From Campylobacteraceae bacterium (lineage in GTDB: Bacteria; Campylobacterota; Campylobacteria; Campylobacterales; Sulfurovaceae): 32,138 nt of DNA. A program made the translations under genes and the position numbers. The notes under the pieces were generated by a model that saw only the letters and a program-made list of their open reading frames with translations, made no database searches and was not told the origin of the DNA. Location of the stretch: the NCBI GenBank assembly GCA_027035765.1, contig JALVUD010000022.1, positions 1-32,138 of the forward strand, in the 5' to 3' direction. Position 1 is the stretch's first letter, and each line of letters starts with the position of its first letter. This document shows, one piece after another, positions 2,363 to 21,470 of this stretch.

Positions 2363-3274
2363 ATGAAGACCATTTTTCAGGATCTGGAAGCCCTAAAAAA
2401 GCATGTCAAAGACAAAGAGGGAGAAAAGATCGTCAAGGAGTTGGAGAAGAATTTCCAGCTTTTGCGGACCAAAAGCGGGCTTTCCCAGCTGCTGCAGAAG
2501 AAAAAGCTGGCCAAGATCGTCCGTAATGTGGAGTATGAGCAGGAGCTGACTCAACTGCAGGTGGAGCTGATCAAACTCCAGAACTGGATCTACGAGAACA
2601 AAAAGCGGGTGATGATCATCTTTGAAGGACGGGACGCCGCGGGAAAAGGCGGGGCCATCAAGCGCTTCATCCAGTACCTCAATCCCCGCAAATTCCGCGT
2701 CGCCGCCCTCCCCAAACCCACCGAGGTGGAGACGGGGCAGTTCTATTTCCAGCGCTACTTCAAACATCTGCCCGATCCGGGGGAGATCGTCTTTTTTGAC
2801 CGGAGCTGGTACAACCGGGCTATTGTGGAACCGGTCTACGGATTCTGCACGCCGGAGCAGTACGAAAAGTTCATGAAAGAGGTCCCCGAGATAGAGCATG
2901 CCCTCATCGATGACGGGATTATCCTGATCAAATTCTGGTTCTCCATCAGCAAAGAGACCCAGCAGAAGCGTTTCAAAGAGCGGATGACCAATCCCCTCAA
3001 ACACTGGAAACTCAGCCCCGTGGATCAGAAGGCCCAGGAGATGTGGGACCAGATCACCTACTACAAAGAGGAGATGTTCAGCCGGACCCACACCAGCTAC
3101 GCCCCCTGGATCATCGTCGACAGCAATGACAAGAAGCGGGCCCGCCTCGAGTCGATCCGCTACGTCCTCTCCCAGATTCCCTACGACGGAAAAAAAGATG
3201 CTGTCATCAACCTCCACCACGATCCCGATATCGTCGAACGCTACCACCGCCGCTCCCACCAGGAGAAGGGATGA
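2363..3274 (+). CDS. ppk2: Polyphosphate kinase 2
   Basis: The 303-residue PPK2-family kinase transfers phosphate between polyphosphate and nucleoside di- or monophosphates. Walker A is GRDAAGKGG at about 89-97. The Walker B/active-site segment FFDRSWYNRA follows at about 144-153, and the lid region has the conserved FKERMTNPLKHWKLSP stretch near 204-219. This single-domain length matches class I PPK2 enzymes. Whether it prefers ADP, GDP or AMP cannot be read with certainty. The ATG at 2363 has a very strong site, GAAGGAGG, just upstream. The gap before it contains AT-rich TATATT-like sequences (2291-2300) but no clear promoter. Confidence 0.93.
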   Translation: MKTIFQDLEALKKHVKDKEGEKIVKELEKNFQLLRTKSGLSQLLQKKKLAKIVRNVEYEQELTQLQVELIKLQNWIYENKKRVMIIFEGRDAAGKGGAIKRFIQYLNPRKFRVAALPKPTEVETGQFYFQRYFKHLPDPGEIVFFDRSWYNRAIVEPVYGFCTPEQYEKFMKEVPEIEHALIDDGIILIKFWFSISKETQQKRFKERMTNPLKHWKLSPVDQKAQEMWDQITYYKEEMFSRTHTSYAPWIIVDSNDKKRARLESIRYVLSQIPYDGKKDAVINLHHDPDIVERYHRRSHQEKG

Positions 3275-3277
3275 AAG

Positions 3278-3309
3278 GAATGGAGAATTGAGAATGGAGA
3301 ATGATGAAG
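3278..3309. repeat. Short-word tandem repeat, GGAGAAT type
   Basis: Imperfect iterations of (A)ATGGAGAAT/TTGAGAAT begin 4 nt after the ppk2 stop. A second, different word cluster (GGTTAAT, 3351-3380) follows in the same gap. Neither has coding potential. Confidence 0.6.
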
Positions 3310-3350
3310 CTTTGTAGTGGGGGATTGCTATACCGTGCCTCAGGCTCCTG

Positions 3351-3380
3351 GATGAATGGTTAATGGTTAATGGTGAATGA
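3351..3380. repeat. Short-word tandem repeat, TGGTTAA type
   Basis: Iterations of ATGGTTA (gaatggttaatggttaat, then ggtgaatga) lie in the ppk2-argH gap, just before the hairpin at 3390-3406. Confidence 0.6.
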
Positions 3381-3389
3381 TTTCGGGTT

Positions 3390-3411
3390 GCATTGCAGGG
3401 CAATGCTTTTT
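3390..3411 (+). terminator. Possible rho-independent terminator after ppk2
   Basis: A perfect 7-bp stem GCATTGC-AGG-GCAATGC (3390-3406) is followed directly by TTTTT. It lies 116 nt beyond the ppk2 stop. A hairpin of the same type with a compensatory base pair (GCGTTGC-TTC-GCAACGC) occurs at 20691-20707 without a T-tract, so this may be a repeat family serving as a terminator only here. Confidence 0.5.
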
Positions 3412-3420
3412 GATTCAAAT

Positions 3421-3462
3421 GACAAAGAGGAGCGGAGCTCCGTTCAAACGACAAACGACAAA
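3421..3462 (-). repeat. Dispersed hairpin repeat, copy B (before argH)
   Basis: Hairpin GGAGC-GGA-GCTCC (3429-3441) is followed by GTTCAAACGACAAACGACAA. Compared with copy A the stem has one G-C pair replaced by A-T on both arms, a compensatory change. It ends 6 nt before the argH -10 box. Confidence 0.75.
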
Positions 3463-3468
3463 GTTGGA

Positions 3469-3474
3469 TAAAAT
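3469..3474 (+). promoter_or_regulatory. Probable argH -10 box
   Basis: TAAAAT occurs in the context TTGGATAAAATACG, 32 nt before the argH ATG. An almost identical TTGGATAAAATCACG stands before pheS at the same distance, which supports both. Confidence 0.6.
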
Positions 3475-3506
3475 ACGCAAATTCCATCCTTCTTCAAAGG
3501 TTTGCC

Positions 3507-4898
3507 ATGTCCAAAAAGATCGCTTCTGCCCGGATCTCTGCCGAGAGTTCGGCGCTGCTCAAAGAGCTCAACAACTCTCTTCCCTTCGATAAAGCCCTCT
3601 ATCGGGAGGATATCCGCGGTTCTCTGGCCCATGCCGAGATGCTCAAAGAGCAGGGGATCATCACCCCCGAGGATTATGCGGCGATTGCACGGGGGCTGGC
3701 CCAGGTGCTGGAGGAGATCGAGAGCGGCGCCTTCTCGCTGGAGGGGGACGATGAAGATATCCATATGGCCGTCGAGCGACGCCTGACCGAGATCGTGGGG
3801 GAGGCGGGCAAGCGGCTCCATACCGCCCGCAGCCGCAACGATCAGGTGGCGGTGGATTTTCGGATGTACGTGCTGCGGCATGACCTGGAGATCGCGGCGC
3901 TCCTGCGGGAGCTCATCGCCTCCCTGCTGGAAAAAGCGAAAGCCCATACCGAAACTTTGCTGCCGGGAATGACCCATCTCCAGCACGCCCAGCCCACCAA
4001 TCTGGGATACCACCTCACCGCCTATGCCGCTATGTTCCGCCGGGATCTGGAGCGTTTTCTCGACTCCTATGAGCGCAACAACCTCTCCCCCCTGGGCTGC
4101 GCGGCGCTGGCGGGGACTCCCCACCCCATCGACCGGCAGCGGACTGCCCGGGAGCTGGGATTCCGCGAACCGACTCTCAACTGTCTCGACAGTGTCAGCG
4201 ACCGGGACTTCGCCCTGGAGATCCTCTTCAATATCGCCACGATGATGATGCACATCAGCCGTCTCAGCGAAGAGCTGATCCTCTGGAGCACCAGCGAATT
4301 CGGCTTTGTGCGCCTCTCCGACAAACACGCCACCGGCAGCTCCATCATGCCCCAGAAGAAAAACCCCGACATCCCTGAGCTGCTGCGGGGTAAGACCGGC
4401 CGGGCCTACGGCAATCTTATGGCGTTGCTGACGGTGATGAAGGGGCTGCCCCTGGCCTACAACAAGGATACCCAGGAGGACAAGGAGGGGGTCTTCGACA
4501 GTGTGCGGACCGCCGAGCTGAGCCTGCGGGTGCTGCGGGAGATGATCGACGAGATGGCGGTCAATACCGAAGCGATGGAGGCCGCCTGTATGAAGGGGCA
4601 TCTGACGGCGACCGATCTGGCCGACTGGCTGGTACGTGAAGCGGGTCTGCCCTTCCGCGATGCCTATCACATCGTGGGCAATGTGGTCAACCGGGCCGAG
4701 GAGCTGGGCAAGGATATCTCCCGGATGACGCCCGAAGAGCTTCGCTCAGTCGATGAGCGGATCACCGCCGAAGCTTGCGCTCTGCTGGACAACCGGGTCT
4801 CGATGAACGCCCGCATTTCGGAAGGGGGCACGGCCAGCGCCCGGACCCGGGAGCAGATCGAACGGCTGGTGAGTTGGCTGGAGGCGTTGAAGGTCTGA
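3507..4898 (+). CDS. argH: Argininosuccinate lyase
   Basis: The 463-residue enzyme splits argininosuccinate into arginine and fumarate, the last step of arginine synthesis. It carries all the marks of the fumarase/aspartase superfamily in the ArgH version: HTARSRNDQ at about 105-113, [11 protein letters not shown] at 154-164 with the catalytic His near 160, and the signature loop [11 protein letters not shown] at 277-287 with the catalytic Ser. The length is normal. The ATG at 3507 has AAAGG 8-12 nt upstream and follows the -10 box at 3469. No other arginine gene is adjacent. It converges with the HIT gene across only 26 nt. Confidence 0.97.
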
Positions 4899-4924
4899 GG
4901 GGTTCGGATCCGATCCGGTAGGGA

Positions 4925-5278
4925 TCAGATGTTTTTCCGGGCATCCTCGTGGAGGTGATCCCATTTGAGCTTGCCGCCGCCCAGAAGATGGAAGTGTAGA
5001 TGGTGGATCTCCTGTCCGCCGTCTTCACCGTTGTTGCAGATGAGGCGATAGCCGGTCTCGTCCACACCGAGCTTGGTCGCGGTCTCCTGGATAAAGGGGG
5101 TCATTTTGGCCATGGTCTCCGGATCGGTCTCCTGGAAACAGCAGATATGTTTTTTGGGGATGACGAGAACATGGATCGGGGCCTTGGGATAGAGGTCGTG
5201 AAAGGCGAGGAACTCTTCGTTTTCATGGACGGTGTTGTTGGGGATCTCTCCGGCGACGATTTTACAGAAAATACACAT
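4925..5278 (-). CDS. HIT-family nucleotide-binding hydrolase (HinT-like)
   Basis: The 117-residue histidine-triad protein has the catalytic HxHxH motif at about 93-97 ([10 protein letters not shown]) and an N-terminal CxxC (C2, C5), which in HinT-type proteins pairs with downstream His residues to bind zinc. HinT enzymes hydrolyse adenosine phosphoramidates; the physiological role here is unknown. The ATG (minus strand, 5276-5278) has AAGGAG nearby, and a TATAAT-type -10 box lies 41 nt further out. It is divergent from pheS, the same arrangement I recall in Campylobacter and Helicobacter. Confidence 0.92.
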
Positions 5279-5318
5279 TGTTCACTCCTTGGGTGGGCTT
5301 CTTTGCAATCTATCCCGG

Positions 5319-5324
5319 ATTATA
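5319..5324 (-). promoter_or_regulatory. Probable HIT gene -10 box
   Basis: On the minus strand the sequence reads TTGCGCTATAATCC, a perfect TATAAT about 41 nt before the HIT ATG, in the 121-nt divergent gap with pheS. Confidence 0.6.
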
Positions 5325-5361
5325 GCGCAAGATCACCTTGGCACTCTCATCACATTTTGGA

Positions 5362-5367
5362 TAAAAT
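5362..5367 (+). promoter_or_regulatory. Probable pheS operon -10 box
   Basis: TAAAAT occurs in TTGGATAAAATCACG, 32 nt before the TTG start of pheS. It closely matches the argH promoter in sequence and spacing, and helps rule out the in-frame ATG at 5232 as the start. Confidence 0.6.
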
Positions 5368-5399
5368 CACGGCAATTTCATTCAGAAAGCGAGACTGTT

Positions 5400-6392
5400 T
5401 TGGATCAACTGAAAGAGAAGATCGAATCGGCTGCCTCCCTGGAGGAGCTGGAGAAGATCCGGATTGAAATTTTCGGTAAAAAGGGAATTCTGGCGGCAGA
5501 GTTTGCCAAACTCAAAGATGTCCCCGGCCCGGAGAAAAAGGCCTTTGCCGAGGGGCTCAACCGCCGCAAGGCGGAGCTGCAACGCCTCTTTGATGCCCGA
5601 CTTGAAGCCTTGAAAGAGGCAGCGCTTCAGGCGCAGCTGCGGGCGGAGGCTCTGGACGTCACGATGTACTCCAACCTTTCGGAAAAAGGGGCCCTGCACC
5701 CGGTCCGGGAGACGATGGATAAAATTGTGGACTATTTCGTGGCGATGAACTTCGCGGTAGAGAGCGGTCCCATGGTGGAGGACGATTTTCACAACTTTGA
5801 GGCGCTCAATCTTCCCAAACACCATCCCGCCCGCGATATGCAGGATACCTTCTATTTCCGCGATGGGATGCTCCTGCGTACCCACACTTCTCCGGTACAG
5901 ATTCGTACTATGATGCGCCAGAAGCCCCCGATTCGAATCATCGCTCCCGGCGCGGTCTTCCGCCGGGACTACGACCTGACCCACACCCCGATGTTCCATC
6001 AGGTGGAAGGCTTGGTTGTCGAAGAGGGAGATGCGGTCAGCTTCGCCAACCTCAAATGGATTCTGACCGACTTCCTGCACTATATGTTCGGCGAAGTGGA
6101 GGTACGTTTCCGTCCCAGCTTTTTCCCCTTTACGGAGCCCTCGGCCGAAGTGGATATCAGCTGTATCTTCTGCGAAGGCAAAGGGTGCCGTGTCTGTTCC
6201 CATACCGGCTGGCTGGAGGTCCTGGGCAGCGGCGTCGTCGATCCCAACGTCTTCAAAGCGGTCGGATACGAAAACGTCAGCGGCTACGCCTTCGGGCTGG
6301 GAGTGGAACGTTTCGCCATGCTGTTGCACCGCATTCCCGATCTGCGGTCGCTCTTTGAAGGAGATATTCGTTTGTTGGAGCAGTTCAGATGA
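5400..6392 (+). CDS. pheS: Phenylalanyl-tRNA synthetase alpha subunit
   Basis: PheS and PheT form the heterotetramer that charges tRNA-Phe; PheS holds the class II catalytic core. Motif 2 is visible as [15 protein letters not shown] at about 187-201 and motif 3 as [14 protein letters not shown] at 295-308. Four cysteines (C255, C258, C263, C266 in [13 protein letters not shown]) form a zinc-knuckle-like insert seen in many bacterial PheS. I place the start at TTG 5400, giving 330 residues, the usual size in this phylum. The frame is open back to 5232, but that part overlaps the HIT gene and the promoter. The gene ends in ATGA shared with pheT. Confidence 0.95.
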
Positions 6393-12645: not shown

Positions 12646-14238
12646 ATGTCCAAATATACCATCCTTGTCTGCGATCACATTCATGAAAGCGGACTCAAAA
12701 TCCTTGCCTCCGATCCGGAGGTAGAGCTCATCAACGCGGCCGATGAGCCCAAAGACAAACTTCTTGAAAAATATGTCCCTCTGGCCGATGTCGCTATTAC
12801 CCGTAGTTCCACCGACGTCGACGAGAAGTTTCTGAAACAGGCAAAAAAAATGCGGGCGATTGTCCGGGCCGGTGTAGGTGTGGACAACGTGGATATCCCC
12901 GAATGCTCCAAGCTGGGGATCGTCGTCATGAACGTCCCCACCGCCAATACCATCGCTGCTGTGGAGATGACCATGGCGCACATGCTGGCCTGTGTCCGGC
13001 AGTTTCCCTATGCCCACAACAATCTCAAAATCGACCGGGTCTGGCGACGTCAGGACTGGTACGGTACCGAACTCAAAGACAAGAAACTGGGAATCATCGG
13101 TTTCGGAAACATCGGTTCACGGGTTGGAAAGCGGGCCAAAGCCTTCGAGATGGAGGTGATCACCTACGATCCCTATATCGATCCCAGCAAAGCGACCGAT
13201 CTCGATATCGCCTATACGGAGAATTTCGACGAGATCCTCGCCTGTGACATCATCACGATCCATACCCCCAAAACCGAAGAGACCATCGGGATGATCGGGC
13301 GGGAGGAGATCGCCAAGATGAAAGACGGGGTGATCCTCATCAACTGTGCCCGAGGAGGTCTCTACGACGAAGCGGCGCTCTACGAGGGGCTCAAAAGCGG
13401 CAAGATAGCTATGGCGGGTATCGATGTCTTTGAGAAAGAGCCGGCCATCGACAACCCTCTGCTGGATCTGAACAACGTGACCGTCACTCCCCATCTGGGA
13501 GCCAATACGAAAGAGTCCCAGCGCAATATCGCCGTTCAGGCGGCTGAGAATGCCATCGCCGCGGCGAAGGGGATTGCTTATCCCAACGCGTTGAACCTTC
13601 CCATTCGGGAAAACGAATTGTCGGATTTTGTGATGCCTTTCCTGGAACTGACCCAGAAGATCGGTTACATGAGCGCCCAGATACCCAAAAGCGGCGCCAA
13701 ATCGATCAAGGTGATCGCTGAAGGACCTGTCTCCGAATATATCGATTCACTGGCTACCTTTGCTACCGTCGGGGTTATGAGCGAGTCTCTGGCAGACAGT
13801 ATCAACTATGTCAATGCCGAGTATGTGGCCAAAGAGCGGGGGATTGAGATCCTTAAAGAGGCGATCCCCGATGCGAAAGGTTTCAAAAACCTGGTTACCG
13901 TGAAACTCACAACGCAGAACGGTCAGGTGTTCCGTGTCAGCGGGACGGTCTTCGAAGAGAATCTCCAGCGGATTGTCGATATTGACGGGTACACCCTGGA
14001 TCTGGAACCCAAAGGACGGATGATCCTCTTCAAAAACAACGACGAACCCGGAGTCATCGGGGATGTGGGGCGTATTATCGCCAGTCACGGGATCAACATC
14101 GCCGACTTTCGCCTTGGGCGTGACAACAAGGGGCAGGCACTCGCTGTCGTCCGTGTCGACGGAGAGATCAGCAAGAAGATCATCGACGAACTGGCGGCGC
14201 TTCCCGCCTGTATCAGTGTCAAAACGGTCTCGCTCTGA
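12646..14238 (+). CDS. serA: D-3-phosphoglycerate dehydrogenase
   Basis: The 530-residue enzyme oxidises 3-phosphoglycerate in the first step of serine synthesis. The Rossmann motif GFGNIGSR is at 152-159, and the catalytic Arg, Glu and His are at R236 (NCARGG), E265 (FEKEP) and H283 (TPHLGA). The long form with an intervening domain and a C-terminal ACT domain (about 455-530, ILFKNNDEPGVIGDVGRI) implies possible allosteric control by serine. The ATG follows rpsA by 18 nt, with CAGGAA upstream. In the Helicobacter and Campylobacter versions of this locus I recall a small gene between rpsA and serA; it is absent here. Confidence 0.96.
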   Translation: MSKYTILVCDHIHESGLKILASDPEVELINAADEPKDKLLEKYVPLADVAITRSSTDVDEKFLKQAKKMRAIVRAGVGVDNVDIPECSKLGIVVMNVPTANTIAAVEMTMAHMLACVRQFPYAHNNLKIDRVWRRQDWYGTELKDKKLGIIGFGNIGSRVGKRAKAFEMEVITYDPYIDPSKATDLDIAYTENFDEILACDIITIHTPKTEETIGMIGREEIAKMKDGVILINCARGGLYDEAALYEGLKSGKIAMAGIDVFEKEPAIDNPLLDLNNVTVTPHLGANTKESQRNIAVQAAENAIAAAKGIAYPNALNLPIRENELSDFVMPFLELTQKIGYMSAQIPKSGAKSIKVIAEGPVSEYIDSLATFATVGVMSESLADSINYVNAEYVAKERGIEILKEAIPDAKGFKNLVTVKLTTQNGQVFRVSGTVFEENLQRIVDIDGYTLDLEPKGRMILFKNNDEPGVIGDVGRIIASHGINIADFRLGRDNKGQALAVVRVDGEISKKIIDELAALPACISVKTVSL

Positions 14239-14244
14239 CCGTTT
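14222..14244 (+). terminator. Weak hairpin at the serA 3' end
   Basis: A 7-bp inverted repeat AAACGGT (14222-14228) / ACCGTTT (14238-14244) spans the serA stop codon. No T-tract follows, so terminator function is uncertain. Confidence 0.25.
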
Positions 14245-14325
14245 CGGCAATAATCCTCTCCTACATATCTTTTCATCTATATCTATTGATCATTTTTATT
14301 AAAGACTTGCATAAGCATAGCTTGC

Positions 14326-14331
14326 TATAAT
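14326..14331 (+). promoter_or_regulatory. Upstream -10 box of the efflux operon (P1)
   Basis: TTGCTATAATTC, an extended -10 match, lies 106 nt before the first efflux gene. The surrounding 14239-14436 gap is much more AT-rich than the rest of the window. Confidence 0.5.
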
Positions 14332-14396
14332 TCGCGGAATATTCATATTCAGTTAACCGTTTATTATTAAATTATTCACTTCTTCATATTTTTTGC

Positions 14397-14402
14397 TATA
14401 AT
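14397..14402 (+). promoter_or_regulatory. Proximal -10 box of the efflux operon (P2)
   Basis: TTGCTATAATGC, the same extended -10 as P1 repeated 71 nt downstream, lies 35 nt before the ATG at 14437. The spacing is ideal for a short leader. Confidence 0.6.
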
Positions 14403-14436
14403 GCAGAAAAGCGCACCGTATTGACAGGAGCATATC

Positions 14437-15858
14437 ATGTGGCGAATCCTTACTCTATCGCTGATCGGAGCCCTGCCGCTCTTCGCCGGCCTCAAAAATC
14501 TTACCCTTGATCAGGCGCTGAACCTTCTGGACAAAAAAAATCTGGAAATCAAAGTAGCGCAGTTTGATGAAACGATGAAAAAATACGACGAACTGGTGGT
14601 GGAGGGAAAGAACTGGGGTTCCGCTACCATTACCCTGCAAGCGCTGCGTTCCAACGATGCGGGAAATGTTTTTGGGTTCAAACTTCAAAGCCGAGAAGCG
14701 ACATTCCGTGATTTCGGCTTCAGAGATTTTCTCGGCGGCATCAGTGGACTGACCAGCCAGGTTCCCTATAATCAGCTGGGAGCGACTCTCGGAAATCCGG
14801 CCATGCAGGACCGTATGCTGGATGTTGCACCTGATGACCTCAACTATCCCGGATCGCGGAACCATTTCCTGACAAAAATTACTTATCAGGTTCCAATTTA
14901 TACCGGCGGCAAACTTACCGAATACAAAAAAATCACCCGTAAGCTTTACGAGATGAGCAAACTTGATACCCGAAAGCTTCGTGACGAAAAGATTTTTCAA
15001 GTCAAGAAAGCCTTTTACAATATTACGCTGGTTGAGCGCTATGTATACAATCTCAACCGTATCCACCGCAATATGCTCAAACTCAAGCAAACCATACTGG
15101 AGATGAAAAAAGAGGGATATACCAAGAAAACAGATGTTCTGGAGATTGAAGCGCGTCTGGCAAAAGTGGACAGTATGCTCAACCAGGCCAGACTCAACCG
15201 GGACCTTGCCTATCAGTTCCTCTCCTTTCTCCTGGATACCCAGGTCGATTCCATCAGGAAGGTCCATCTGGTCATTCATGCACCCAAGGTAAAACAACAG
15301 GACATCGAAAGGTTGAGTCTCGATATCCAGAAAGCGAAAATGGGACTGGAAGTGGCCCGTCATGCGATTGCGACCGAAAAGGCCAACTTCCTGCCGACCG
15401 TCGGAGCCTTTGCGGAGTACGGAAGTGCCGACAATACCCTCTGGAACGACTTCGCCAAAAAAGACTTCTACACGGTGGGAATGCAATTCAAACTCAATAT
15501 TTTCAACGGCGGCAGTGACAAAGCGAAACTGGAAAAAGCCAGAGTGCGACAGATGAAAGTGGCCCGACAGGTGGAACTGGCACGGAAGGGAATCGCACTG
15601 AAAGTTCATAAACTTCAGACGGCGATACGCTCCCTGGAGTACGATCTGCGGAGTGAGCAGAAGCAGCTGAACCTGGCCCGCGAGGTCTATCGGACCTATG
15701 AAGCCAAATATAAAGAGGGTTTGGCTTCCATTACCGATGTGTTGATCAAACAGTCCATTGAACTACAGGTGCTTTTGGAGTATCTTCAGGTTGCCAACAA
15801 ACACAGTGAAAAAGTCTTTGAGCTTGAAAAAATACTCGACATGGGAGGTCGTTCATGA
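14437..15858 (+). CDS. TolC-family outer membrane efflux protein
   Basis: The 473-residue outer membrane channel subunit of a tripartite pump starts with a Sec signal peptide (MWRILTLSLIGALPLFAG, cleavage around 17-18). Two outer-membrane efflux protein repeats follow: the first from LTLDQALNLLDKKN (about 23) and the second from about 285, with long amphipathic helices rich in Lys, Gln and Leu. AGGAG stands upstream of the ATG. It is the first of four genes joined by 4-nt ATGA overlaps with an adaptor and two permease halves, which is strong evidence for one pump. The substrate cannot be read from the sequence. Confidence 0.88.
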   Translation: MWRILTLSLIGALPLFAGLKNLTLDQALNLLDKKNLEIKVAQFDETMKKYDELVVEGKNWGSATITLQALRSNDAGNVFGFKLQSREATFRDFGFRDFLGGISGLTSQVPYNQLGATLGNPAMQDRMLDVAPDDLNYPGSRNHFLTKITYQVPIYTGGKLTEYKKITRKLYEMSKLDTRKLRDEKIFQVKKAFYNITLVERYVYNLNRIHRNMLKLKQTILEMKKEGYTKKTDVLEIEARLAKVDSMLNQARLNRDLAYQFLSFLLDTQVDSIRKVHLVIHAPKVKQQDIERLSLDIQKAKMGLEVARHAIATEKANFLPTVGAFAEYGSADNTLWNDFAKKDFYTVGMQFKLNIFNGGSDKAKLEKARVRQMKVARQVELARKGIALKVHKLQTAIRSLEYDLRSEQKQLNLAREVYRTYEAKYKEGLASITDVLIKQSIELQVLLEYLQVANKHSEKVFELEKILDMGGRS

Positions 15859-16664
15859 AAAAAATCCTCTTGATGGCCCTGTTGGCCGGCGGGGTAATCT
15901 TTGCTAACGTACTTGAGTTGAGCGGTACAGTGATTTCCGACAACCAAAAGATGATAACCAGCCGCTTTATGGGATTCATCAAAAATATGCGTGTCAGTGA
16001 AGGGGATATGGTCAAAAAGGGGCAGGTGCTCTATGAGATCGATTCCAAAGAGATCGAAGCGGCGGTCAAGCAGGTGGATCTGGCGATCTCCCAGGCCCGT
16101 CTGGCTCTGCAGATGAACCAGAATCAGCTCAACAATGTCCTGCTCAACCTGGCCAGGAACAAACGGCTCTTCAAAAAAGACATGGTCTCCAAATACGAGC
16201 TGGAGCAACTGGAACTGGCAGCGAAAAATATGCGCGATATGGTCAAAATCGCGAAAAAGCAGGTCGAGCAGGCGGAAGCTCAGAAAGAGGCGGTCCTCAA
16301 CCAATACAAATACCTGACGATCAAGGCACCCAACGACGGGGTCGTTGTGGCCAAGAAACTCAACGAAGGGGATATGCAGATTCCCGGGATGCCGGCTCTG
16401 GTCATCACCGATCTGAAGCACCTGAAGGTTTTGGTTGAGATCAGCGAGAGCAACCTTGCCCACATTCGTATCGGCAAAAAGGTCAAAGTGGAGATCCCCT
16501 CTATCGGGCTCAAGACCGATGGGAAGGTGAGTGCCATCATCCCCGCCTCTAATCCTATGACCCACAAGTTCAAAGTCAAGATCAGTTTCGACAAAAAAGG
16601 CGCCTTCGTCTTCCCCGGAATGTATGCCAAAGTCTATATCCCCGAAGAGGATAAGAAACAATGA
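15855..16664 (+). CDS. Periplasmic adaptor (membrane fusion protein) of RND efflux pump
   Basis: The 269-residue HlyD/AcrA-type adaptor links the inner membrane permease to the TolC channel. It has a signal peptide (MKKILLMALLAGGVIFA, no lipobox Cys), a biotinyl-lipoyl half-motif (GFIKNMRVSEGDMVKKGQVL, about 36-55), a coiled-coil hairpin (about 64-150), the second lipoyl half (YLTIKAPNDGVVVAKKLNEG) and a beta-barrel domain to the C-terminus. Typical RND adaptors are 350-400 residues, so this is a compact version that seems to lack most of the membrane-proximal domain. It overlaps both neighbours by ATGA. Confidence 0.87.
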   Translation: MKKILLMALLAGGVIFANVLELSGTVISDNQKMITSRFMGFIKNMRVSEGDMVKKGQVLYEIDSKEIEAAVKQVDLAISQARLALQMNQNQLNNVLLNLARNKRLFKKDMVSKYELEQLELAAKNMRDMVKIAKKQVEQAEAQKEAVLNQYKYLTIKAPNDGVVVAKKLNEGDMQIPGMPALVITDLKHLKVLVEISESNLAHIRIGKKVKVEIPSIGLKTDGKVSAIIPASNPMTHKFKVKISFDKKGAFVFPGMYAKVYIPEEDKKQ

Positions 16665-18280
16665 TCAGCTACCAACCGAAAGATATCGCCGGAAAGCTGG
16701 CTCTGGGGTTTTTGAAAAATCCCCTGACGTTGGTGCTGGGGATCTCTCTGTTACTTCTGGGTTTCATCTCTCTGCAGGTGATGCCGCGGGAGGAGGATCC
16801 CCAGATTGCTATCTCCGGCGGAGCGGTCATCGCTCCCATGCCCGGAGCCACTCCCAAAGAGATCGAAAATGTCATCGTCAATCCCCTGGAGCGGAAAATC
16901 CGGGAGATCAAAGGCATCAAACATATCTACGGCATCGCCATGCACAACGTGGGGATCGTCAATGTGGTCTACAAGATCGGTGTACGCCGGGAAGACGCCA
17001 ACCTCAAACTTTATGACAAAGTGATGCAAAATATGGATCATCTTCCCAAAGGGGTGATGCAGCCGTTGGTCAAGCCCTTCGATATCGATATCGACATTCC
17101 GATTCTGACATTTGCCTTTTATCCGTTGGAGGGGCAGAAAGCCGATTACGAAAAGCTTTTTCCTCTGATGCGGCGGATTCAACAGCGGGTAAACGCCGTC
17201 AAAAATGTGGCCAAGACAACATTGGTCGGGGCCCACAAACCCCAGTTCAACGTCGAGGTGGATCTCAACAAGCTGACAGCCTACAATCTTTCGCTGGGAC
17301 AGATCATGAAGGCGATCCAGTCTATCGCCGTCGATGTCCCCGATGTTAAAGGACGTACAAAAAGCCACAAACTCCTGATCTTCGGCGTCAAGAATGCCAT
17401 CAACGATGTAGACGATGTGAAAAATATCATTGTCGCGCAATATATGGGTTCACCGATCTACCTCCGGGATGTGGCCACGGTGAAACGTGGAATCGATTTT
17501 CAGAATTTCAAAACCGCCTATGTTGCCTACAAAAAAGGCAAGACTCCCGAAGAGATCCGCAAAGCAAAGCTTTCACCGATCAAGGAACAGATCACTCTCA
17601 CGGTCTCGAAACTGGCCGGAACCAATGCCGTTTTCGTAGCTAACGATGTCCTGAAACTGATGGCAGAATACAAGGATCAGTTTCATAAAGCCGGCTTTGG
17701 CTATGTCCTGACCCGCAACTATGGGAAACGGGCCAACGACGCAGTCAACGAACTTGTCGATCACCTGCTCATTACCATCGTGATCATTGCGGTGATGCTG
17801 ATCTTCGCTCTGGGCTTCAAGGAGGCGATCATCGTGACCCTGACCGTCCCAGCGATTCTGGCGGTAACCCTCTTTATCGCCTGGATCTCGGGACAGACGA
17901 TCAACCGGATCACGCTTTTCGCCTTCCTCCTCTCGCTGGGATTGTTGGTGGATGCGGCGATTATCGTCATCGAAAACATCCACCGCCATCTCCATGCCCA
18001 TGATGCGGCGGATCGGAGTATGGAAGAGATCCTGGTAGAGGCCACCGACGAGATCGGTGCCCCCACCAATGTGGCGACACTGGCGATCATCATGACGATG
18101 ATTCCCATGCTTTTCGTCGGAGGGATGATGGGCTCCTTTATGAAGCCGATTCCTCTCAACGTCCCGGTGGCTTTGATTGCCTCGTTGGTCGTCGCCTATA
18201 TCTTTACCCCCTATTTGAGTCTGAAACTGCTCAAAAAACCCAAAGCCCATTACCACCACCATGACGGAGGTCACAAATGA
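16661..18280 (+). CDS. RND efflux permease, N-terminal half (TM1-TM6)
   Basis: This 539-residue protein equals the first half of an AcrB/HAE-type RND permease, a proton-driven exporter normally about 1,040 residues in one chain. TM1 is at about 22-40, followed by the MPREEDPQI signature, a periplasmic loop to about 365, then TM2-TM6. TM4 holds the proton-relay signature GLLVDAAIIVIEN with Asp 431 and Glu 438; the second Asp of the AcrB pair is Ala 432 here. It ends after TM6 in a His-rich cytoplasmic tail (HYHHHDGGHK). The stop overlaps the start of the second half by ATGA. A simple sequencing error is unlikely, since the break falls exactly in the linker and the next start has its own GGAGG site. 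Confidence 0.88.
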   Translation: MISYQPKDIAGKLALGFLKNPLTLVLGISLLLLGFISLQVMPREEDPQIAISGGAVIAPMPGATPKEIENVIVNPLERKIREIKGIKHIYGIAMHNVGIVNVVYKIGVRREDANLKLYDKVMQNMDHLPKGVMQPLVKPFDIDIDIPILTFAFYPLEGQKADYEKLFPLMRRIQQRVNAVKNVAKTTLVGAHKPQFNVEVDLNKLTAYNLSLGQIMKAIQSIAVDVPDVKGRTKSHKLLIFGVKNAINDVDDVKNIIVAQYMGSPIYLRDVATVKRGIDFQNFKTAYVAYKKGKTPEEIRKAKLSPIKEQITLTVSKLAGTNAVFVANDVLKLMAEYKDQFHKAGFGYVLTRNYGKRANDAVNELVDHLLITIVIIAVMLIFALGFKEAIIVTLTVPAILAVTLFIAWISGQTINRITLFAFLLSLGLLVDAAIIVIENIHRHLHAHDAADRSMEEILVEATDEIGAPTNVATLAIIMTMIPMLFVGGMMGSFMKPIPLNVPVALIASLVVAYIFTPYLSLKLLKKPKAHYHHHDGGHK

Positions 18281-20010
18281 AAAAATTTGAGAACTTCGTC
18301 TATGCTATTTTGGAGAGCAAGAGCAAAAAGATGCTGGTGATCCTTCTGACCCTGATGGCACTGGCGGCTTCGGTGATGATGTTGCCCACCAAAATCGTCA
18401 AGGCCAAGATGCTTCCCGGAAAAAGCGACAATACCTTCTCTGTTTATGTCAAAACTCCCAAGGGCAGTTCCATCGAGCAGACCAAGGCTGTAAGCCAATG
18501 TGTGGTGGAGCATCTCAAAAAAGAACCCGAGATCACCGACATGGAGATCTATGCCGGGATGGGGATTCCTCTGGATTATGCAGGCCTGGTCAAAGGCTCG
18601 GGGATGAAAAACAGCGAAAACGTTGCCGAGATCGCCGTCAATCTGACCGACAAACATGAACGGGACGAGACCTCCTATATGATGGTCCACCGGCTACGTC
18701 CACTTGTCAAGAAAGCCTGCGAACCGGTGGTTCCCGGCAGTGTGATCCAGTTTGTGGAACAGCCGGCAGGACCGCCGACTTTGGCGGCAATCGTCGTGGA
18801 GGTGACCGGGCACAATCTCAAAAAGATCCGCGAACTCTCCAAAGAGGTGGCGGCGATCCTGAAAAAGACCCCCAAACTGGTGGATGTGGATATCATGGCC
18901 GATGATATCTACAAAAAATACGAATTGGTCCCTGATAAAGAGAAGATCGCCCGAAGCGGCCTCAGTGTCGACCAGGTCAACAAAATAGTCTATCTGGCCT
19001 TTGAAGGGATGGCGATCGCTCACAAAAACTCCGCCAACGAGCCGGATCAGATCCAGATTTTCGAGGTACTCGATCCTAGAACAAAACTCTTTCGATCCAA
19101 AGACATAGATGCTCTCAAAAGCAAGCTCAACGAGCTCAACCTGATGAACCAAAAGGGGATGATGGTTCCGGTCAGCGAAGTGGTCCAGATCAAAGAGGTG
19201 GACTCCCAACCCAGCATCATGCAGAAGGATCTCCATCGGATGATCAACGTCACTGCCGAAGCGGACGAAGAGTCCCAGGTCTATCCCTTGCTGGAGGCGC
19301 GGGACCGGATGATCAAATATTTCAAGAAACGCGGCTACAAGGTGGAAAAAGAACCCGGAATGTCCACCTACATGTTCGATCTCCACCTGACCGATCCCAA
19401 GACGGGAGAGAAGTTCCTGCTGCGCTGGGATGGGGAGATGAAGGTGACGCTGGATACCTTCCGGGATCTGGGAGGGGCCTTCATCGGGGCACTGGTGCTG
19501 ATCTTCCTCCTGCTGGTCATCTATTACAAAAACTATACGCTGCCGACGATTACGTTGATCGGAAGCTTCCTCTCCATCATCGGCGTCATCGTGGGGCACT
19601 GGGTCGCGGATCTGGTGACCCGGGACACCTTCTTCCTGACGGCGACCTCGTTGATCGGCTTCATCGCCCTGATGGGGATCAGCTCCCGGAACTCCCTGCT
19701 GCTGATCGATTTTGCCAAGGCGCTGATGGAAGCCAAAGGCTTCCCCAAACGGCGGGCCATCGCCGTCGCCTCGGCGACCCGGGCCAAGCCGATCATGCTC
19801 ACCGCCATCGCGATCATCCTGGGTTCGGCCCTGCTGGCCAGCGATCCGATCTTCGGCGGTCTCGGGGTCGCCCTGATTTCGGGAACCGTGGCGGCGGTCT
19901 TCGTCTCGCTGATCTTCGTCCCGGTCCTTCTCGACAACGCCAAGGCGATGGAGCTGGATGACGAAAACCCCATCCACCACGATCCCACGGACATCTCCAT
20001 CACCCGCTGA
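18277..20010 (+). CDS. RND efflux permease, C-terminal half (TM7-TM12)
   Basis: This 577-residue protein is the second half of an RND permease: TM7 at about 19-36, a large periplasmic porter/docking loop (about 40-390), then TM8-TM12. TM10 carries FIALMGISSRNSLLLIDFAKAL, where Arg 471 occupies the position of the essential Lys 940 of AcrB. The start ATG at 18277 lies inside the stop region of the first half and is preceded at 7-nt spacing by GGAGGT, so independent initiation is likely. The two halves should assemble into a 12-TM unit, comparable in principle to SecD plus SecF. Hydrophobic composition and codon use resemble those of the N-terminal half. Confidence 0.88.
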   Translation: MKKFENFVYAILESKSKKMLVILLTLMALAASVMMLPTKIVKAKMLPGKSDNTFSVYVKTPKGSSIEQTKAVSQCVVEHLKKEPEITDMEIYAGMGIPLDYAGLVKGSGMKNSENVAEIAVNLTDKHERDETSYMMVHRLRPLVKKACEPVVPGSVIQFVEQPAGPPTLAAIVVEVTGHNLKKIRELSKEVAAILKKTPKLVDVDIMADDIYKKYELVPDKEKIARSGLSVDQVNKIVYLAFEGMAIAHKNSANEPDQIQIFEVLDPRTKLFRSKDIDALKSKLNELNLMNQKGMMVPVSEVVQIKEVDSQPSIMQKDLHRMINVTAEADEESQVYPLLEARDRMIKYFKKRGYKVEKEPGMSTYMFDLHLTDPKTGEKFLLRWDGEMKVTLDTFRDLGGAFIGALVLIFLLLVIYYKNYTLPTITLIGSFLSIIGVIVGHWVADLVTRDTFFLTATSLIGFIALMGISSRNSLLLIDFAKALMEAKGFPKRRAIAVASATRAKPIMLTAIAIILGSALLASDPIFGGLGVALISGTVAAVFVSLIFVPVLLDNAKAMELDDENPIHHDPTDISITR

Positions 20011-20016
20011 CAGTTT

Positions 20017-20030
20017 CGGGCTTAGGCCCG
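20017..20030 (+). terminator. Possible terminator hairpin after the efflux operon
   Basis: CGGGC-TTAG-GCCCG forms a 5-bp stem 7 nt after the stop of the second permease half, followed by GCTCTTTATCC. The T-tract is weak. The efp -10 box starts 20 nt further on. Confidence 0.4.
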
Positions 20031-20050
20031 GCTCTTTATCCTCTCTTCGC

Positions 20051-20056
20051 TATAAT
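20051..20056 (+). promoter_or_regulatory. Probable efp -10 box
   Basis: TATAAT occurs in TTCGCTATAATCTC, 33 nt before the efp ATG. Confidence 0.6.
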
Positions 20057-20088
20057 CTCTCCATCAATATATTGTTCAGGAGTAAGCT

Positions 20089-20652
20089 ATGGCAACTATC
20101 GGAATGGGGGATATCAAAAAAGGTACCCGCCTCGAGATCGACGGCAACCCCTACAAAGTGATCGAATTCCAACACGTCAAACCCGGCAAAGGCGCCGCCT
20201 TCGTCCGGATCAAGATCCGCAACCTCTCCACCGGCAAAGTGATCGAAAAGACGGTTCACGCCGGGGACAAGTTCGAGGTTCCCAACCTGGAGCAGAAGAA
20301 GATGCAGTATCTCTACGACGATGGGGAGTTTCTGCAGTTTATGGACAGTGAGACCTTCGATCAGATCGGTCTGACCCATGAGCAGGTGGGGGAGGTTTTC
20401 GATTTCATGATCGACGGGATGGAGGCGGATATCCTCTTTCACAACGGCAAGCCCATCACCGTGGAGATCCCCCAGACCGTGGTTCTGGAAGTGGTCGAAA
20501 CTCCCCCCAACTTCAAGGGAGACTCCCAGGGGGGCAAAAAGCCCGCCACGCTCGAGAGCGGTGCCGTCGTCCAGGTCCCTTTCCATATCCTGGAAGGGGA
20601 CAAGATCAAAGTCGATACTGCCGAGGGGAAATACCTCGAAAAGGTGAAATGA
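20089..20652 (+). CDS. efp: Translation elongation factor P
   Basis: The 187-residue EF-P rescues ribosomes stalled on proline runs. It has the KOW-like N-domain, two OB domains and the standard length. Lys 34 in the loop [10 protein letters not shown] is the position modified in E. coli EF-P by EpmA/EpmB; neither partner gene is in the window. The ATG is preceded by CAGGAGTAAG. It seems to be a single-gene unit, since a 257-nt repeat-rich gap follows. Confidence 0.97.
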
Positions 20653-20842
20653 AACAGTAACTAGCAACTAGTAACTAGGAGTTTTGGTATGCGTTGCTTC
20701 GCAACGCCTTGAGGCAAATGGAGGCGGGACTGAAGTCCCGCAGTGCAGGGCTGAAGCCTGCCCTCAAATGACAAAGCTTCTCTCAGTTGCGACTGCTTCG
20801 TAGGCGTCCCCAATAACCAATACACCAATATACCAATAACAA
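20653..20842. repeat. Mosaic of hairpin and short-word repeats between efp and the DJ-1 gene
   Basis: The gap holds no gene but several small elements in a row. These are the word repeat (g)TAACTAG(c) at 20653-20680; hairpin GCGTTGC-TTC-GCAACGC at 20691-20707; hairpin GCGGGAC-TGAA-GTCCCGC at 20724-20741; an imperfect hairpin GCAGGGCTGAAGCCTGC at 20745-20761 with the same TGAA loop; CAAATGACAAAG at 20765-20776, also found at 3416-3427; and ACCAATA-type words at 20811-20840. None looks like a normal terminator. Confidence 0.65.
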
Positions 20843-20866
20843 AATCCCTATTTTCCCCAATTCCGT

Positions 20867-20872
20867 TATAAT
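20867..20872 (+). promoter_or_regulatory. Probable -10 box of the DJ-1/aminotransferase operon
   Basis: TATAAT occurs in CCGTTATAATTTTC, 38 nt before the ATG at 20910. Confidence 0.6.
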
Positions 20873-20909
20873 TTTCAGACAACACTATTCCACTGAAAAG
20901 GAGATTGTC

Positions 20910-21470
20910 ATGGCACGTGCACTGGTACCTTTGGCCGAAGGATTCGAGGAGATCGAAGGGGTGACGATCATCGATATACTGCGCCGCGGAGGGGTGGAGG
21001 TCAACAGCGCCTATCTGCCCGGAGAGTTCGCCACGGACCTGATCACCGGGGCCAACGGGATCACCGTCCAGGCCGATATGCCTCTGGCCAATGCGGCGGT
21101 GGACGAGTATGATATCATCGTGCTGCCCGGGGGCTGGGGCGGGACCAACCGGCTGGCGGAGAACGAGCTGGCCCAGAAGCTGCTCAAAGAGTTCAAAGCC
21201 CGCGGCAAATGGGTCGCCGCCATGTGCGCCGCTCCCTACGCCCTGCATGTGGCCGGGGTGCTCAGCCCCAAATACACCTGCTATCCCAGTGTGGAGGAGC
21301 AGATCAGGCCCGAGGACTGGATCAACGAAAAGGTGGTGGTGGACGAAAAGGTGATCACCTCCCAGGGGCCCGGCACCGCCATCTGCTTCGCCCTGGAGAT
21401 CGTTCGGCAGCTGGTAGGCGAGGAGAGCTACGAGACGGTCAAAAACGGCACTCTGGCGAGTTACTGCTGA
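20910..21470 (+). CDS. DJ-1/PfpI-family protein
   Basis: The 186-residue class I glutamine-amidotransferase-like fold protein belongs to the DJ-1 branch. The nucleophile-elbow Cys is C106 (VAAMCAAPYAL), preceded by the helper Glu at about 16 (GFEEIEG), the arrangement of DJ-1 and YajL. Family members act as oxidative-stress proteins, chaperones or deglycases, and several of these assignments are disputed; the role here is open. The ATG has AAAAGGAGA upstream. An aminotransferase gene follows after 16 nt and an ArsC-like gene overlaps that, suggesting one transcript. Confidence 0.9.
   Translation: MARALVPLAEGFEEIEGVTIIDILRRGGVEVNSAYLPGEFATDLITGANGITVQADMPLANAAVDEYDIIVLPGGWGGTNRLAENELAQKLLKEFKARGKWVAAMCAAPYALHVAGVLSPKYTCYPSVEEQIRPEDWINEKVVVDEKVITSQGPGTAICFALEIVRQLVGEESYETVKNGTLASYC

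Follow-up and report, generated by a model that had tools for sequence, protein, structure and literature searches.

The permease of a putative tripartite RND efflux pump in a member of the Sulfurovaceae is encoded by two adjacent half genes, and this split permease is a real, conserved form of RND efflux pump. In all likelihood it is made as two polypeptides that arose through one gene fission, are produced by coupled translation, pair with each other and share a single proton relay. The genes lie in a window of 32,138 nucleotides (the whole stretch of DNA analysed), where the RND halves form the end of a four-gene operon on the plus strand with the order tolC–adaptor–RND-N–RND-C (Table 1). 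All four genes are joined by ATGA overlaps (positions 15855, 16661 and 18277), as a preliminary description of this DNA had stated, and both the adaptor and the TolC-type channel of a tripartite system are co-encoded with the permease halves. The split pump would operate as AcrB does and is a putative exporter.

Table 1. Features of the split-pump operon in the window
Feature	Position	Strand	Description
TolC-family outer-membrane efflux protein, operon gene 1	14437..15858	+	473 aa; Pfam OEP 5.4e-33; TIGR01844 match below cut-off; homologue 5' of the split pump in most relatives
Periplasmic adaptor (membrane fusion protein)	15855..16664	+	269 aa; HlyD_D23 1.2e-31; TIGR01730 RND_mfp over cut-off; ATGA overlap with both neighbours
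RND permease N half, TM1-TM6, TM4 Asp431	16661..18280	+	539 aa; ACR_tran 3.6e-74; AlphaFold2 6 TM; kept in relatives
Lys/His-rich cytoplasmic tail of N half, KPKAHYHHHDGGHK	18236..18277	+	end predicted disordered; varies among species
Shine-Dalgarno motif GGAGGT for C half, within 3' end of N-half ORF	18266..18271	+	sequence
ATGA start/stop overlap, N-half/C-half genes	18277..18280	+	sequence
RND permease C half, amphipathic helix then TM7-TM12, TM10 Arg471	18277..20010	+	577 aa; ACR_tran 5.9e-52, two stretches; kept in relatives

Alignment of the two translations to the Pfam ACR_tran model gave complementary coverage in the order of the genes, with about positions 11-499 of the model in chain N and about 514-824 and 848-1016 in chain C. 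Since the model is covered by the N half and then by the C half, the two consecutive open reading frames jointly make up one complete permease, in agreement with the earlier proposal that they form a single AcrB-like protein. An AlphaFold2 model of the window N half contains six TM-type helices (22-40, 354-384, 386-409, 416-444, 454-493 and 500-523) and a tail that ends, as read directly in the translation and as noted earlier, in HYHHHDGGHK, with residues 530-539 disordered (pLDDT <50). As a 12-TM proxy, the relative L071 was folded as one chain, the in-frame TAG between its halves being read as Gln; this model, built on a shallow alignment (pLDDT 73, pTM 0.65), places TM6 at 495-522, a low-confidence linker that includes the junction at 527-532, a short helix at 535-546 and TM7 at 548-567. 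In these models the break falls after TM6 and before the amphipathic cytoplasmic helix that precedes TM7, that is, in the TM6-TM7 linker in which the preliminary description had placed the cut. Twelve TM helices with large periplasmic loops after TM1 and TM7 are thus predicted from the window N half and the L071 proxy. Foldseek matched the proxy over its full length to AcrB and AcrD with a TM-score of about 0.7 and an rmsd of 7-10 angstrom, the latter pointing to loose domain placement. The combined N+C sequence is predicted to have the RND fold, the one-chain proxy being no proof that separate chains pair.

Curated HAE1 models (e.g. TIGR00915 and NF033617), whose cut-offs presuppose a full-length chain, gave at best 210.8 bits against a cut-off of 1250, and both halves scored below every NCBIfam permease cut-off; at the gene level there are two open reading frames in place of the single HAE1 polypeptide. 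For each half, the HME (CusA/CzcA) model TIGR00914 was outscored by the best HAE-type models, and metal efflux was rejected on these scores; SecDF matches on the N half were weak (1.2e-05) and far below cut-off.

When both halves were searched against a sample of the phylum, the split was found to be conserved in the family of the window and in nine other family-level groups of the order. Within the family of the window, the C-half query matched 140 of the 150 genomes searched; in the phylum sample it matched 163 of 397 (42 of 68 genera), and the N half gave this tally too, while about 60% of the genomes in that sample had no homologue of the split pump. Single chains account for ten of the 163 matching genomes (nine of group f4, and G501), which by subtraction leaves the split form in about 153 genomes from ten Campylobacterales family-level groups (f1, f3 and f6-f13). 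Close relatives are therefore not all fused, and the refuting outcome that the preliminary description had named for its proposal did not occur. Junctions were read directly in 115 split loci, representing 111 distinct ones, and in every one of the 115 the N half lies immediately 5' of the C half. Adaptor and channel genes are found 5' of most split loci; in many families the locus is preceded by serA and followed by efp and DJ-1. Some split pumps (e.g. L164, L170, L211 and L212) lie outside this context of serA, tolC, adaptor, efp and DJ-1 genes, and thus the split form is present in paralogous systems too.

Several observations on individual loci accompany this survey. The gene order serA - tolC - adaptor - RND-N - RND-C - efp - DJ-1 (window 12646-21470) is common to many Campylobacterales families. 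Divergent split pumps stand beside TetR and MarR regulator genes in L135 (2449-5716, on plasmid pSULKU01 of Sulfuricurvum kujiense), L211 and L212, with no annotated adaptor or TolC gene alongside. The C halves of L218 and L219 (821 and 826 aa) are extended at the C-terminus by a long charged stretch, about 250 aa in length, with repeated WCxLxDNxKS-like segments. The window genome itself (G000) holds a further AcrB-type HAE1 permease, at 40864-43944 of contig C47 (L213, about 2860-5990), with one in-frame TGA near TM7, which is either a pseudogene or a draft error.

Alignment to solved pumps identified the residues of the HAE1 proton relay, a TM4 Asp and a TM10 Lys/Arg, on different chains of the split pump: Asp431 of chain N, at the position of AcrB Asp407, and Arg471 of chain C, at that of AcrB Lys940. 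Both were invariant in the split pumps compared (49/49 each), whereas the second TM4 acid position (AcrB 408) is Ala in 40 of them and Asp in nine; an Arg at the TM10 position is also present in MexK and TriC. As the relay residues are divided between the two chains, pairing should be needed for pumping, and one protomer probably needs both chains. It could be envisaged that the halves are instead independent transporters, each a 6-TM homo-oligomer and neither a part of one protomer, since each is an intact open reading frame and the halves of RND proteins are internal repeats of similar architecture (PMC8277102). This is very unlikely, given that the halves are always adjacent, that one tolC-adaptor set accompanies each N/C pair and that the relay is split between chains yet invariant in each. 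The halves are also co-inherited: N and C trees of 49 pairs showed no well-supported conflict, on which half swapping among paralogous systems was rejected, and their mirror-tree distances correlated with r 0.87, where permutations reached at most 0.24, an agreement that co-inheritance of linked genes alone would produce. The N and C halves are thus inherited together, as expected of linked genes.

From the sequence, we infer that the permease is produced as two polypeptides which then assemble, and the junction between the half genes is in keeping with this. In the window the GGAGGT motif noted earlier is present ahead of the second start, although it stands 5 nt from the ATG at 18277 and not 7 nt as had been given. 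Among the 111 distinct loci the half genes overlap by 4 nt (ATGA or GTGA) in 41 and by 1 nt (such as TAATG) in 40, the stop directly abuts the start of the C half in 13, and the remainder are varied. A Shine-Dalgarno-like motif precedes the C-half start in 93 of the 111, as against 283 of 4136 internal ATGs (7%) used as controls. The histidine count in the last 25 residues of the N half ranges from 0 to 9 over the same loci, and most of group f6 is without a His-rich tail, which was therefore rejected as an essential feature. Such tails (up to HHHHHHFQK), for which a role linked to metal or pH is conceivable, recur at the C-terminus of chain N in many families and are absent in others.

A programmed frameshift or stop-codon readthrough could in principle fuse the halves wholly or partly, including as a minor product. 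The frames in the window are indeed related by -1, as originally described, with an AAA codon before the stop, and in 17 of the 111 loci the two open reading frames share a frame with a stop between them, mostly TAG. Across the loci, however, the C half is in the -1 frame relative to the N half in 84, in the same frame in those 17 and in the +1 frame in ten, and since all three frame relations occur, -1 slippage is excluded as a conserved mechanism, which vindicates the doubt already voiced about it. Stop identity varies likewise (TGA 58, TAA 37, TAG 16), and a frameshift-type XXXYYYZ heptamer was found at only 16 of the 111 junctions; what is conserved instead is a Shine-Dalgarno motif with an ATG or GTG start. 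On these frame, stop and heptamer statistics, conserved recoding in either form was ruled out, and joining of the halves, whole or partial, is highly improbable, though a minor fusion product may be formed. The conserved element at the junction is a start site and not a recoding site.

Selection on the two reading frames was estimated against congeners, using the pairs with estimable dS, and dN/dS was 0.04-0.06 for the N half and 0.04-0.09 for the C half; both halves are under strong purifying selection. The split also occurs in single-contig genomes such as G020 and G024, and draft assembly is thus not its cause. The notion that the break stems from an error in sequencing or assembly, or from a recent frameshift that turned the permease into a pseudogene, prompted by the frequency of such errors among split long open reading frames, by the 47-contig draft state of the window genome and by the in-frame TGA in its other RND gene, is scarcely credible and is refuted by conservation of the split over ten family groups, with a proper Shine-Dalgarno motif and start in 111 distinct loci, single-contig genomes included, with purifying selection on both halves and with one origin of the split. 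The earlier view of a stable two-chain form rather than a pseudogene is thus upheld.

That single origin was seen in trees of the whole permease (a quick tree of 64 rows and a careful tree of 37 rows), in which all split sequences form one clade with one state change, supported at 100/100 (bootstrap/SH-aLRT) in the 37-row tree. The fused homologues, which are single open reading frames from group f4 and from plasmids of Pseudomonadota, a cyanobacterium and a member of the Bacteroidota, fall outside this clade. As the trees are rooted on these fused relatives, the fused state is ancestral with one fission, and a single ancient fission, with the split form then retained, fits the data best.

The two-polypeptide permease can thus be envisaged as follows. 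As the gene trees show, an ancestral single-chain HAE-like permease gene underwent a single break in an ancestor of the split pumps, which today occupy most of the Campylobacterales families sampled; the break fell in the loop that joins TM6 to the cytoplasmic helix ahead of TM7, and the two-gene form was retained thereafter. The C half would be translated by coupled (re)initiation from its own Shine-Dalgarno motif at the N-half stop codon. Both halves would insert as 6-TM proteins and then pair; three such N+C heterodimers would make up the functional trimer, which would dock to the adaptor and the TolC-type channel. To judge from the alignment to AcrB-type pumps, the proton relay would be shared between TM4 Asp431 of chain N and TM10 Arg471 of chain C, so that neither half should pump alone. 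A bolder reading, which we consider rather doubtful, is that these pumps are an order-wide family of obligate two-chain RND permeases, with one ancient fission behind them, for which having separate chains is itself functional (e.g. as a control point for assembly or stoichiometry), and that half-to-half proton coupling could be studied by expressing each half on its own.

Genus g54 of group f10 offers a natural comparison of both designs. In G338 the tolC-adaptor-N-C operon lies 5' of efp and a DJ-1 gene, while in G501 the matching slot holds an adaptor and a one-chain permease of 1073 aa; the one-chain pump (L222, 1013-4914) and the two-chain pump (L223, 8108-12171) thus occupy the slot 5' of efp and DJ-1 in two species of one genus. 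The G501 permease clusters with the fused f4 clade in both the 64-row and the 37-row trees, and the simplest reading is that the operon was replaced by a foreign one-chain pump. Such a replacement suggests that one-chain and two-chain pumps may be functionally interchangeable. Since many genomes of the phylum lack a homologue and G501 has a one-chain pump in this slot, the split form can be dispensed with.

In textbook accounts an RND pump is one chain that contains an internal repeat, and a stably split pump is a ready-made system for analysing folding, pairing and proton passage between the repeats, because each half can be separately tagged, mutated or omitted. The split also bears on annotation: length-based curated models miss the family, and when RND pumps of Campylobacterota are counted automatically, one permease can be scored as two. 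In the RefSeq-derived annotation of Sulfurovum mangrovi and Sulfuricurvum kujiense each half is labelled 'efflux RND transporter permease subunit', and annotation pipelines thus list both genes already. No paper describing an HAE-type permease that is split in nature (as split, fissioned or two-polypeptide) was found in the open-access literature, which is weak evidence of absence, and no mention of the split pump was found in keyword passages of a paper on metal stress in Nitratiruptor (PMC10092412).

Among known systems, MdtB/MdtC is an RND permease in which the products of two different genes, both full-length, form a heterotrimer; unlike the split pump, it combines two full-length permeases and not two halves of one protomer. 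SecD and SecF may be separate chains or be fused into a single SecDF chain. They share with the split pump the RND superfamily, 6+6 TM helices and a two-chain state, a likeness in the split that is taken as an analogy, but they differ in being protein-translocation partners with other periplasmic domains and without TolC or adaptor. SecD/SecF is the RND relative known for a 2 x 6 TM set-up, and NolGHI of the NFE family, which by its name might be an RND permease encoded by several genes, is a single gene and so not a split pump (PMC8277102). Pumps of the AcrB type have their internal repeat within one chain (PMC8277102). The split pump resembles such HAE1-type permeases (AcrB, AcrD and MexB; MexK and TriC) in its ACR_tran family, fold, TolC and adaptor partners and TM4 Asp; in contrast to their single chain of about 1,020-1,060 aa, however, it consists of two chains cut after TM6. 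Its nearest single-chain homologues found are those of group f4 (four genera), with about 50% identity to the window protein in the N half and 40% in the C half, of G501, and of plasmids of Polaromonas, Sphingopyxis, Pseudanabaena, Paracoccus, Vibrio and Flammeovirga, each of them one open reading frame of 1053-1154 aa where the window has two.
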